From Glycomyces fuscus (GTDB lineage: Bacteria > Actinomycetota > Actinomycetes > Streptosporangiales > Streptosporangiaceae): 64,000 nt of DNA. Under the pieces are notes generated by a model. It made no database searches, was not told where the DNA came from, and worked only from the letters and a program-made list of their open reading frames with translations. The stretch is from the NCBI GenBank assembly GCA_002529455.1, contig NYMS01000007.1, positions 1 to 64,000 on the forward strand, written 5' to 3'. The translations under genes were made by a program, and so were the position numbers. Within the stretch, counting starts at the first letter, position 1, and every line of letters starts with the position of its first letter. Positions 4,219-6,324 of the stretch are shown here, one piece after another.

Positions 4219-5907
4219 TCAGGCGGTGTCCTCCCCGACCACGGCGCCGTCGGCCAGCCTCAGCTCCGACCAGGCCCAGTTGCGGCGCAGCCACCGGTCG
4301 TGCGAGGCCACCACCACCGCGCCGGGGGCGGTGCCCAGCGCCTCCTCCAGTTCCTCGGCCAGCGCCAGGGACAGGTGGTTGGTCGGCTCGTCCAGCAGCA
4401 GCACGTCCGGCGCGTGCCCCACCAGCATCGCCAGCGCCAGGCGGCGCCGCTGCCCCACGCTGAGCCTGCCCACCGGCCGGTCCAGGTCGCGCGGGGCGAC
4501 CAGGCCCAGGTCGGTCAGGCGGGGAGCGCCGGGCAGGGCGCCGTTGAGCCCCTCGTAGAGCTCACGCGGGGTCCGCTCGGGGTCGGGAAAGACCACGTCC
4601 TGCTCCAGCAGGGCGACCGCGGCCCCGCGCCGCCACAGCACCTGGCCCGACGCCGGGCGCAGCCGGTGCCCGAGGGCGTACAGCAGCGTGGACTTGCCCG
4701 CGCCGTTGGGACCGGTGACCAGCAGGCGCCCGTCCGAGGGCACGTCCAGGTGGTCCAGGCGCAACCGGCCCGGCACGACCAGGTCGCGCAGGGTGATCAC
4801 CTGGCCGTCGGCCGTGCCCGGATCGCGGGTCAGCGAGGCGGTGAACTCCAGCGGCCTGGGCGGTTTGCGCACCTGGTCGCGCTCCAGCTCCTCCAACCTG
4901 CCCCGGGCGTTGCGCACCCGGCGCGAGACCTGCTTGTCCACGCGCCCGCCCAGGAAGTCGTAACCCATCTTGTCGTTGTCCCTCGGAGCGCGGTTGTGCG
5001 AGACCTGCCGGGAGGTGGTGCGCACCGCCTCGCGCAGGCCCTTGAGGGTGTCCTGCTCGTCGCGGTAGCGCTGCTCCCATCGTTCGCGCTCCAGCTGCTT
5101 CTCCCGCAGGTAGAAGGAGTAGGCGCCGCCGTAGTAGGTGGGACCGTCCACGGCCGGGTCCAGGTCGAGCAGGCCGGTGCACACCGCGTCCAGGAACACC
5201 CGGTCGTGGCTGGCCAGCACCACCGCTCCGGGCAGTCCCCGCAGGTGTCCCTCCAGGAACTCCAGCGCCTGGTCGTCCAGGTGGTTGGTGGGCTCGTCCA
5301 GCAGCAGGGCGCGCGGGCGGCGGATGAGCAGGGCCGCCAGTCCCAGCCGCCCGCGCTGGCCGCCCGACATCCGCCCCACCGGCCGGTCCGGGCCGAGACC
5401 GTCCAGGCCCAGTCCCGACACCACCAGTTCGGCCCGGCGCTCGGCGTCCCACACCTCCAGCAGTTCGGCCTCGGCCAGCGCCTCGGAGTAGTCCCGCAGG
5501 GCCTGCCCGTCCTCGGGCGAGCCGTCCAGCGCCGCGGCGCTCGCGGTCAGCCGCCGCTCCACCCGCCGGGCCGGTTCGAGGGCCTCGTCGACCACCTGGG
5601 CCAGGGTCGTGTCCGGGGCGTGGGGCAGTTCCTGGTACAGGAACCCGGTGTCCGCGGGGCGCTCCACCCGCCCGGCGTCGGGCTCCTCCCGCCCGGCGAG
5701 CAGCCGCAGGAGGGTGGACTTGCCCGAGCCGTTCTCCCCCACCAGGCCGAGCCGCTGGCCGGGGGCGACGTCGATGTCGACGCCGTCGAACACCACGTGC
5801 GCGCCGTAGGACCTGGCGAGGTCGCGGGCGCGCAGCAGGGGCGGGCCGGCCGGGGCCGTGCGCGGCGCGGCTCCGGAGGCGGCACCGGTCGTGTTGCCGA
5901 GGGTCAT
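4219..5907 (-). CDS. ABC-F family ribosome-protection ATPase
   Basis: Soluble ABC-F protein, 562 residues, with two fused nucleotide-binding domains and no membrane segments. Such proteins act at the ribosomal E site, either in translation or by displacing antibiotics. Domain 1 has Walker A GENGSGKST, signature MSGGQRGRLG and Walker B ALLLDEPTNHLDD; domain 2 has GPNGAGKST, LSVGQRRRLALAML and DVLLLDEPTNHLS. The inter-domain linker is basic and helical (KQLERERWEQRY...NRAPRDNDKMGYDF), resembling actinomycete antibiotic-resistance ABC-F proteins. ATG 5907 is chosen because AAGGGTGG lies about 10 bases upstream; the frame is open further upstream, but that region behaves as an mRNA leader. A 205-base leader with a tiny uORF and a long-range stem suggests drug-inducible attenuation. 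Confidence 0.9.
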   Translation of the reverse strand: MTLGNTTGAASGAAPRTAPAGPPLLRARDLARSYGAHVVFDGVDIDVAPGQRLGLVGENGSGKSTLLRLLAGREEPDAGRVERPADTGFLYQELPHAPDTTLAQVVDEALEPARRVERRLTASAAALDGSPEDGQALRDYSEALAEAELLEVWDAERRAELVVSGLGLDGLGPDRPVGRMSGGQRGRLGLAALLIRRPRALLLDEPTNHLDDQALEFLEGHLRGLPGAVVLASHDRVFLDAVCTGLLDLDPAVDGPTYYGGAYSFYLREKQLERERWEQRYRDEQDTLKGLREAVRTTSRQVSHNRAPRDNDKMGYDFLGGRVDKQVSRRVRNARGRLEELERDQVRKPPRPLEFTASLTRDPGTADGQVITLRDLVVPGRLRLDHLDVPSDGRLLVTGPNGAGKSTLLYALGHRLRPASGQVLWRRGAAVALLEQDVVFPDPERTPRELYEGLNGALPGAPRLTDLGLVAPRDLDRPVGRLSVGQRRRLALAMLVGHAPDVLLLDEPTNHLSLALAEELEEALGTAPGAVVVASHDRWLRRNWAWSELRLADGAVVGEDTA

Positions 5908-5998
5908 GGAGTGGACCACCCTTCGTTTCGGGGTGGGCCTCGATGCGCGGTACCGGCCACCGTGCGCGGCGCGGTCCCGGGACGACCGAGGAGTCGTC

Positions 5999-6102
5999 GA
6001 CATCGAGACCGCACCGGGGATGGAGGTGCACGCCGAGCGGGGATCCGGCTCCAGCCACTGTGGGCGAGCCCCGCGCGCTCGGCGGTCGTCGGTCTCGATG
6101 TC
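5999..6102 (-). promoter_or_regulatory. Long-range stem in the ABC-F mRNA leader (putative attenuator)
   Basis: GACATCGAGACCG at 5999-6011 and CGGTCTCGATGTC at 6090-6102 are perfect 13-bp inverted repeats separated by 78 bases, all inside the untranslated leader of the ABC-F gene. The promoter-proximal arm overlaps the stop codon of the three-codon uORF at 6101-6112. A ribosome held on that uORF would cover this arm and free the distal arm, changing the fold of the leader. Erm and ABC-F resistance genes are known to be controlled this way; applying it here is inference from the geometry. Confidence 0.6.
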
Positions 6103-6112
6103 ACAAACGCAT
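6101..6112 (-). CDS. Three-codon leader peptide MRL (putative stalling uORF)
   Basis: ATG CGT TTG TGA reads Met-Arg-Leu-stop, 9 bases downstream of a good -10 element, so the transcript would begin within a few bases of the ATG and the uORF would be effectively leaderless. Arg-Leu at the start of macrolide-sensing leader peptides such as ErmD's (MRLR within the peptide) is part of a known stalling context, though the second basic residue is absent here. The TGA lies in one arm of the leader stem. It is too short to judge by codon statistics, so the call rests on position, sequence and the adjacent structure. Confidence 0.5.
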   Translation of the reverse strand: MRL

Positions 6113-6121
6113 GTTGCGCCC

Positions 6122-6150
6122 AGGCTAACCGCCGGGGGCGGGGAGGGCAA
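6122..6150 (-). promoter_or_regulatory. Promoter of the ABC-F transcript
   Basis: On the minus strand, TTGCCC (6150-6145) and TAGCCT (6127-6122) are separated by exactly 17 bases, fitting a housekeeping actinomycete promoter with a TAnnnT -10. The run TAATTCC immediately upstream of the -35 is AT-rich compared with its surroundings, a feature of WhiB7-activated resistance promoters. WhiB7 control is only a suggestion. Confidence 0.55.
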
Positions 6151-6324
6151 AGGAATTACGCGGGTGTCCGGCCGCGTGCGCGCGGGCCGGCCGACCGGGG
6201 AGGCCCTCCATCCCTTTCTCCCCGCTGCCCGTCCGGCCGTGTGCGCGGGCCTGCCCCCTCCGGGGCGGGCCGGGCGGCGCCGGGGCGACCGGCGCCCCGC
6301 CCGCGGGAGGGGGCGGGCCGGTGC

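Follow-up and report, generated by a model that had tools for sequence, protein, structure and literature searches.

The ermC-type translational attenuator sets helices 1:2 and 3:4 against helix 2:3 and keeps a Shine-Dalgarno sequence hidden, and in this it resembles the leader described here. Its peptide, ErmCL, differs from our upstream open reading frame (uORF) in being longer, led by a Shine-Dalgarno sequence, and furnished with a macrolide arrest sequence. Closer in size are the three-codon uORFs MR[I/M] and MK[L/Q] of CplR and VmlR2, which are linked to pleuromutilins, lincosamides, and streptogramins A in the available parts of the report on them (PMC10201436); for CplR, the same parts describe a stalled ribosome that refolds the leader, exposing the ribosome site. 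The CplR leader of Clostridioides resembles ours in that the ABC-F gene is preceded by a uORF of three codons whose second residue is Arg; it is unlike ours in its 212-nt 5' region and in its terminator followed by U residues, it belongs to a different phylum, and the available parts of the report mention neither a leaderless start nor a WblC box for it (PMC10201436). MsrDL (MYLIFM), before msrD, is likewise a short uORF on which a drug stalls the ribosome ahead of an ABC-F gene, but it has six codons and its own ribosome binding site and is described, in the sections at hand, as working by transcription attenuation in response to macrolides (PMC10314930). Among actinomycetes, excerpts on Are5sc (MLV/MRS) and TiaA (MVGDDDISG) of Streptomyces describe ABC-F genes with uORF leaders; their 5' UTRs of 232 and 194 bp and their uORFs with ribosome binding sites set them apart (PMC12421871). 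The mycobacterial polycysteine uORF attenuators (Canestrari et al. 2020) share with our locus a leaderless short-ORF sensor in an actinomycete, but, so far as the accessible text of two later papers goes, they sense cysteine supply through Cys codons and control different genes (PMC9031893, PMC13236596). Three-codon uORFs before ABC-F genes, and leaderless attenuator uORFs for cysteine in mycobacteria, are thus known already.

The window analyzed here is a 64,000-nucleotide stretch of a Glycomyces fuscus contig (NYMS01000007.1, positions 1 to 64,000) from a 6.56-Mb genome. It contains an ABC-F gene (4219..5907, read on the minus strand from 5907 to 4219, 562 aa), downstream of a promoter, a uORF, and a helix; all leader elements lie on the minus strand. 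A WblC/WhiB7-like box, GTAATT (6154..6159), agrees with GAAAWY at 5 of 6 positions and stands 3 bp upstream of the -35 element TTGCCC (6145..6150), whose TTGC is kept in most of the aligned rows. A 17-bp spacer leads to the -10 element TAGCCT (6122..6127), and 9 nt further on comes ATG CGT TTG TGA (Met-Arg-Leu-stop, 6101..6112), for which a 5' leader of 2-3 nt is predicted. This promoter and uORF had been pointed out in an earlier note on the same DNA, and both are present as described, at 6150-6101 on the minus strand. The note had also reported that the uORF stop overlaps a perfect 13-bp inverted repeat, which we confirmed: arm 1, GACATCGAGACCG (6090..6102), starts within the stop codon, sharing the GA of the TGA, and is complementary throughout to arm 2, CGGTCTCGATGTC (5999..6011), 78 nt away. 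The sequence ATGCGTTTGTGA has a single occurrence in the 6.56-Mb genome.

Between arms 1 and 2 lies an internal hairpin, CGCCGAGCG / CGCTCGGCG (6031..6085), at the same position as a hairpin that covaries in other families. The 13-bp helix alone stops short of the ABC-F ribosome site, and a third arm is needed to reach it. Arm 3, CATCGAGGCC (5936..5945), is a second near-copy of arm 1 and competes for arm 2, and the overlapping GGCCCACCC (5931..5939) is complementary, with one mismatch, to arm 4, AAGGGTGGTCC (5913..5923), the putative Shine-Dalgarno region of the ABC-F gene, where several other genera have GGAGGTGG instead. At -107.2 kcal/mol (z, -3.27), the predicted fold of the 208-nt leader was not equaled in stability by any of 200 shuffles. 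A search of Rfam with positions 5850-6250 of the window and eight related loci gave no match at E values up to 1.

The 562-aa product is a predicted antibiotic-protection protein. It matches the ribosome-protecting ABC-F proteins, its nearest solved relatives by sequence being EttA and other ABC-F proteins. Its best NCBIfam match, to the TlrC/CarA/OleB/SrmB family, scored 427 bits against a cut-off of 800, and no named ABC-F type among the 25 NCBIfam families listed reached its cut-off. The window protein may belong to the ARE5 clade (TiaA, LmrC, and Are5sc); it is 60% identical to a protein (L139) that carries a TiaA-type uORF, MAGDDDISG after a purine-rich stretch, which corresponds to the TiaA design in the published excerpts (cf. 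PMC12421871).

An ABC-F match at an E value of 1e-60 was found in 38 of the 40 genomes that made up our sample of the genus, and 22 orthologues, the window's own counted, were identified at 72-100% identity (one, L103, aligned over residues 17-407 only). In 21 of the 22, ATG-NNN-NNN-TGACA stands at the same place after the -10 element; the uORF has the form ATG-(CGY/CTG)-NNN-TGA, and the arm behind it is identical or almost so. The sole orthologue without the leader is L095, whose upstream region looks unrelated. The in-frame stops reported for some orthologues apparently lie upstream of the start codon. A search of the same 40 genomes with RTGCKNNNNTGACATCGAGACC, one mismatch allowed, found 23 places, of which 21 are ABC-F leaders and two (in G011 and G035) have no start codon; the pattern misses the variant leader L102. 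One of the 21 precedes a truncated ABC-F match in G030 (L258, G030:C1:4281200-4284200), where the leader is intact and the match spans only query residues 14-184. Beyond the genus, we read 15 leaders of proteins 62-68% identical to the window protein in other genera of the family (L112-L126), and 14 have the same design. Eleven of these 14 start with GTG, two have two-codon uORFs (GTG AAG TAA in L115 and GTG AAG TGA in L125), and L124 encodes MKS-stop in a shorter leader. At 57-61% identity (L127-L146), the promoter-plus-short-uORF scan found the design in 0 of 20.

The 21 genus leaders and the 14 from other genera form a family set of 35. Start codons, for which the search pattern admitted only ATG or GTG, are ATG in 24 and GTG in 11, and the stop is TGA in 34 and TAA in one. 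Codon 2 is CGT in 18, CGC in 13, AAG in two, and CTG in two, so that Arg (31 leaders) or Lys (2 leaders) is kept at the amino-acid level while the third base varies. Codon 3 drifts, encoding Asn in 16, His in 5, Lys in 3, Ser in 3, Met in 2, Ile in 2, Tyr in 1, and Leu in 1, and being absent in 2. The earlier note had proposed searching orthologous leaders for a conserved MRL-stop and compensatory changes in the arms: a uORF at the same place and compensatory arm changes are there, and MRL as a conserved sensor peptide had to be given up, codon 2 being Arg in 31 of the 35 family leaders but codon 3 being Leu in only 1 of them.

The distance from the -10 element to the start codon (with the -10/-35 taken as the best-scoring pair 6-11 nt upstream) is 7 nt for all 11 GTG starts and 8-10 nt for all 24 ATG starts, so every one of the 35 leaders has its ATG or GTG 7-10 nt after the -10. 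According to excerpts of two published studies, transcripts from WblC promoters in Streptomyces coelicolor mostly begin 7 or 8 bp after the -10 (PMC7157823), and leaderless translation in mycobacteria needs ATG or GTG at the 5' end (PMC4633059). Transferred to the present spacings, these start points would make GTG either the very first codon of the transcript or a codon displaced from its 5' end by one base, and ATG would lie 1-4 nt inside. The uORF is therefore likely to be leaderless, with no more than about three nucleotides ahead of its start codon, and the earlier description of it as three codons long and apparently leaderless is probably right.

The WblC consensus, as given in the available text, is GAAAWY, 3 bp, TKGMNN, 16-19 bp, TANNNT (PMC7157823), and the window promoter, GTAATT-CCT-TTGCCC-17-TAGCCT, fits it with one mismatch in the box. 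A WblC-like box matching at 5 or more of 6 positions was present at the exact 3-bp spacing in 25 of the 35 family leaders; sliding the box by one position to either side left 12 and 10, by two positions 1 and 0, and by three positions 0 and 1. Eight WhiB-family matches were found in the window's genome, and one of them (L266) has a C-terminal AT-hook, which we take to mark it as WblC/WhiB7-like. The promoter elements suggest that the ABC-F leader may be regulated by WblC.

We scanned 109 ABC-F upstream regions for a -35 element T[TG]G, 16-19 bp, a -10 element TANNNT or CA[TC]CAT, 7-11 nt, and an ATG- or GTG-started frame of no more than six codons before its stop. The arrangement was present in 51, of which 41 also had an 8-bp arm at the stop; neither the reverse strand (0 of 109) nor any of 10 dinucleotide-shuffled sets (0 of 109 each) gave a positive. 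The CA[TC]CAT alternative was added after one group had been seen (L184-L186, L188-L190, and L194-L196, 9 of the 51), 42 positives remaining without it, and the upstream window was lengthened by hand for L185 and L186. A second pattern, combining an A-rich box, the -35, the -10, and a leaderless three-codon uORF, used neither stem nor protein information; it occurred at 12 places in the 40 genus genomes, all 12 at this ABC-F leader (one before the truncated copy in G030), although it was drawn from these leaders and misses the window's own box.

Covariation was examined for both helices in the 35 family leaders. Because arms 1, 2, and 3 were picked as best complements, the pairing counts are favored, and the control, in which arms were re-dealt among leaders, leaves relatedness in. 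On this footing, 361 of the 385 cells of helix 1:2 are paired, whereas re-dealing gave a mean of 351.0 and a maximum of 358 (0 of 2,000 rounds reaching 361). Four leaders have G-C in place of A-U at pair 2, and at pair 11 G-C gives way to A-U; the earlier proposal that the uORF stop lies in the switch helix is supported across the family, with compensatory changes. Helix 2:3 is paired in 335 of 385 cells (re-dealt mean, 324.9; maximum, 333; 0 of 2,000 reaching 335), with exchanges at pairs 4, 9, and 10. Leader by leader, arm 2 as best partner of arm 1 was equaled in 0 of 200 shuffles in 28 of the 35 leaders; the test failed in L102, L113, and L115 (26, 141, and 177 of 200). Arm 3, sought over the whole downstream stretch, was equaled by 1-33 of 200 shuffles in the window's genus (7 or fewer in 18 of 21). 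Taking all 35 leaders, 21 stood at 8 or fewer (18 of 21 in the genus and 3 of 14 in other genera) and the other 14 at 19 or more, with 29 or more in 11 of the 14 from other genera.

The same exchange was followed by folding, with arm 3 confined to the 60 nt before the Shine-Dalgarno sequence and arm 2 anchored by hand for L113 and L115. Free leaders of the genus formed helix 1:2 at a probability above 0.5 in 19 of 21 and helix 2:3 in none. With nt 1-22 held by a ribosome, helix 2:3 exceeded 0.5 in 12 of 21 and failed to form in the other 9. In the window, covering nt 1-22 took helix 1:2 from 1.0 to 0 and helix 2:3 from 0 to 0.98, and local pairing of the Shine-Dalgarno region fell from 0.60 to 0.33. 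Mean local Shine-Dalgarno pairing over the genus leaders fell from 0.70 to 0.39 with the ribosome, compared with 0.70 when another 22-nt block was held. The 14 leaders from other genera gave helix 1:2 in 11 when free, with helix 2:3 already present in 3; with the ribosome, helix 2:3 formed in 6 and local pairing went from 0.75 to 0.57 (control, 0.69). The net unpaired probability of the Shine-Dalgarno region hardly moved on covering nt 1-22, from a mean of 0.20 to 0.23 over the 35 leaders and from 0.30 to 0.27 in the window, because the region finds other partners; a rise above 0.1 was seen in 9 of 35 leaders with the ribosome and in 1 of 35 in the control. Pairing of the Shine-Dalgarno region with its own 45 nt upstream was in modest excess, 0.79 versus 0.67 in shuffles. 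We conclude that mutually exclusive helices 1:2 and 2:3 are supported both by covariation and by folding (the latter for 12 of the 21 genus leaders, with the window among those that switch), and that release of the ABC-F ribosome site by the switch is only partly supported by the folding model.

The design is met again in other families of the class, where visual inspection supplied the leaders that the scan had missed. The uORF is MKL-stop in L002 (Catellatospora, 61% identity), MKL or MEL in L162-L166, MRI in L172, L173, and L180, MLI in L178, MRN in L179 and L148, MRL in L191, MK in L171, VES in L147, and MWI in L175; it has five codons in L174, L176, L181, and L182 and is ATG-TGA or GTG-ATC-TGA in L183-L190 and L193-L196. 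Arg or Lys follows Met in 11 of the 33 leaders outside the family set, so this feature is not general, and codon 3 is Leu in 7 of 33, one of them the MRL of L191. The last group, twelve leaders of one genus (g97, family f21), carries ATGTGATCTGA, or ATGTGATCCGA in L186; the ATG-TGA start-stop is kept in 12 of 12 and GTG-ATC-TGA in 11 of 12. In the single-protein contig search, whose patterns included DEPTNHLD, common to ABC-F proteins, L002 was the only close relative among the 80 loci listed, of at least 80.

These relatives give a clearer view of the mechanism. In many of their short leaders the direct partner of arm 1 is the start region of the ABC-F gene, and the probable start codon is often part of the helix. 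Across 21 hand-anchored leaders, 179 of 189 cells are paired (re-dealt mean, 137.5; maximum, 163; 0 of 2,000 reaching the count), with pair 6 being C-G in 10 and G-C in 11 and further exchanges at pairs 3, 5, 7, and 8. This table left out L002, L163, L173, L186, and L193 (insertion, deletion, or poor complement), and no arm pairing with the start region was seen in L171, L174-L176, L181, L182, or L191. The folding test covered 25 leaders, with the five missing from the table included and L147 left out. The mean unpaired probability of the start region was 0.09 when free, 0.49 with nt 1-16 covered, 0.58 with nt 1-22 covered, and 0.08 in the control; a rise above 0.2 occurred in 19, 21, and 0 of 25 under the last three conditions, respectively.

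Covariation was also seen, in 32 leaders, for a hairpin that lies between the arms and consists of GCCCGC...GCGGGC and an inner helix of 4 bp: 96.1% of its cells are paired and the covariation score is 0.292, each reached by 0 of 500 shuffles, and six pairs are changed on both sides (2 of 500 shuffles). The number of pair types was not above that in shuffles (11 versus 11.2); versions slid along the alignment were 22.7-50.2% paired. A covariance model of it, R1, was built from 32 of 42 segments, dropping L115, L116, L119, L126, and L002 and the near-duplicates L166, L185, L189, L194, and L196. R1 found 34 places in 296 genomes of the class, and 33 precede an ABC-F gene (32 by coordinates and one, in G382, by reading frame), though many of these genomes had also supplied the model. 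The remaining R1 match, L249 (G058:C28:151527-151582), appears by eye to lie just 3' of an ABC-F frame and is possibly a leftover leader. The inter-arm hairpin of the window's own genus differs from the R1 hairpin of other families; R1 recovers the leaders of L090 (E value, 0.018) and L083 (E value, 0.78) only weakly, and those of L085, L102, and the window escape it.

Other ABC-F genes of the genus also have leaders. A second ABC-F gene in the window's genome, outside the window (43% identity; L247, L272), is preceded by a uORF, MRLYFL-stop (G000:C13:105367-105411, minus strand), that by its position 7 nt after TATCGT would be leaderless. The promoter together with ATGAGGCTG occurs at 11 places in the 40 genus genomes, 10 of them before an ABC-F gene from the genus match set, and the readings are MRLIFL, MRLTFL, MRLYFL, MRLYIFL, MRLFIFL, MRLYFFL, MRLYHFL, MRLYHSL, MRLYIHL, MRLHIHL, or MRL. 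It is this uORF, not the window's, that resembles MsrDL (MYLIFM) as quoted in the available text (PMC10314930), and by that analogy the true sensor of macrolides in the genus may be this one. A 48% identical ABC-F paralogue in the genus (L104:1413-1500) has ATG GCT TCT TGA, and its arm GAGTGCTC pairs with GAGCACTC just before a GTG; judged from its letters, this leader appears to follow the same design as the window's in a different sequence.

The leader parts, whose conservation and complementarity the comparisons demonstrate, would act together as follows. We consider it probable that the ABC-F gene is under drug-inducible, ribosome-mediated attenuation by a conserved leaderless Met-Arg-X-stop uORF whose stop overlaps helix arm 1. 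The promoter with its WblC-like box would raise transcription under translation stress, and ribosomes would begin at the 5'-terminal AUG without a Shine-Dalgarno sequence. Without drug, the three codons would be finished and the ribosome would leave, so that arm 1 can pair with arm 2; the ABC-F Shine-Dalgarno region (arm 4) would then be held by the flank of arm 3, giving low expression. Held at codon 1 or 2, a ribosome shields some 16-19 nt on its downstream side, and hence a portion of arm 1, whose first base is nt 11. Drugs that block early elongation or the peptidyl transferase would thus leave a stalled ribosome covering arm 1; arm 2 would pair with arm 3, the 3:4 hairpin would be weakened, and the ABC-F gene would be translated. 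By resemblance to the known systems, Met-Arg/Lys-X-stop seems to fit the pleuromutilin, lincosamide, and streptogramin A group better than macrolides.

The controlled step would be translation rather than transcription. The same sensor could instead work by transcription attenuation, with helix 1:2 as a terminator that a ribosome stalled on the uORF prevents, and TTTTTT directly after the 1:2 helix in L112 and L114 could make it an intrinsic terminator there. Of the 35 leaders, however, only those 2, and not the window, have TTTT in the 10 nt that follow arm 2, and the pairing of arm 1 with the start region itself in other families points to translation; we regard a transcriptional mechanism as rather unlikely.

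A different account, in which promoter and RNA structure alone are conserved, the three codons are untranslated, and induction comes from WblC alone, would explain the frequent WblC-like box at the right spacing and the arms being more constant than codon 3. It leaves aside that the start, the codon 2 amino acid, the stop, and the reading frame are all preserved although codon 3 varies, that the choice of GTG or ATG is tied to the -10 spacing, and that the same arrangement recurs with different arms in other families, and we think it improbable. The Arg-Leu of the window uORF had also been likened in the earlier note to macrolide-sensing leader peptides. Met-Arg-Leu does stand literally in this uORF, and again in L191 of another family, and MRLR is present in MefAL and ErmDL according to the available part of one report (PMC10314930). 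The near-absence of Leu at codon 3 from the family (1 of 35) argues against the motif being the sensor, however, as does the second basic residue required by the +x+ motif, which a peptide of these three residues lacks; a macrolide-specific sensor of the ErmDL/MefAL kind is accordingly the least credible of the readings considered, and we give it hardly any chance. Attenuation of ABC-F translation through a leaderless uORF remains our preferred reading.

The literature searched, in which subscription journals and preprints were thinly covered, contained no description of a leaderless uORF combined with an ABC-F gene, of uORFs of one or two codons, of the spacing rule, or of the start-region arms. 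The tool uORF4u, according to the accessible text, requires a Shine-Dalgarno sequence no more than 20 nt away and, unless set otherwise, a minimum of three codons (PMC10219788), settings under which a class of leaderless minimal uORFs is likely to be missed. In the ABC-F attenuators of the papers compared, each uORF has a ribosome binding site of its own; in the present case the uORF appears to be two or three codons at a leaderless 5' end. More broadly, there is an even prospect that these leaders belong to one RNA device found across the class Actinomycetes, in which a WblC-type promoter delivers the first codon as a drug sensor, mostly one to three codons end inside an arm that locks the ABC-F start site, and a conserved hairpin lies between. 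Since at most a few peptide bonds, and perhaps none, are made, such a sensor would read initiation and the first elongation step, not the nascent peptide. Leaderless initiation and drug stalling at the first codon are open to direct tests through the start-stop versions and the link between GTG or ATG and spacing. If the proposal is true, control of a resistance gene in these bacteria depends on leaderless initiation and takes two stress inputs, WblC and a stalled ribosome.
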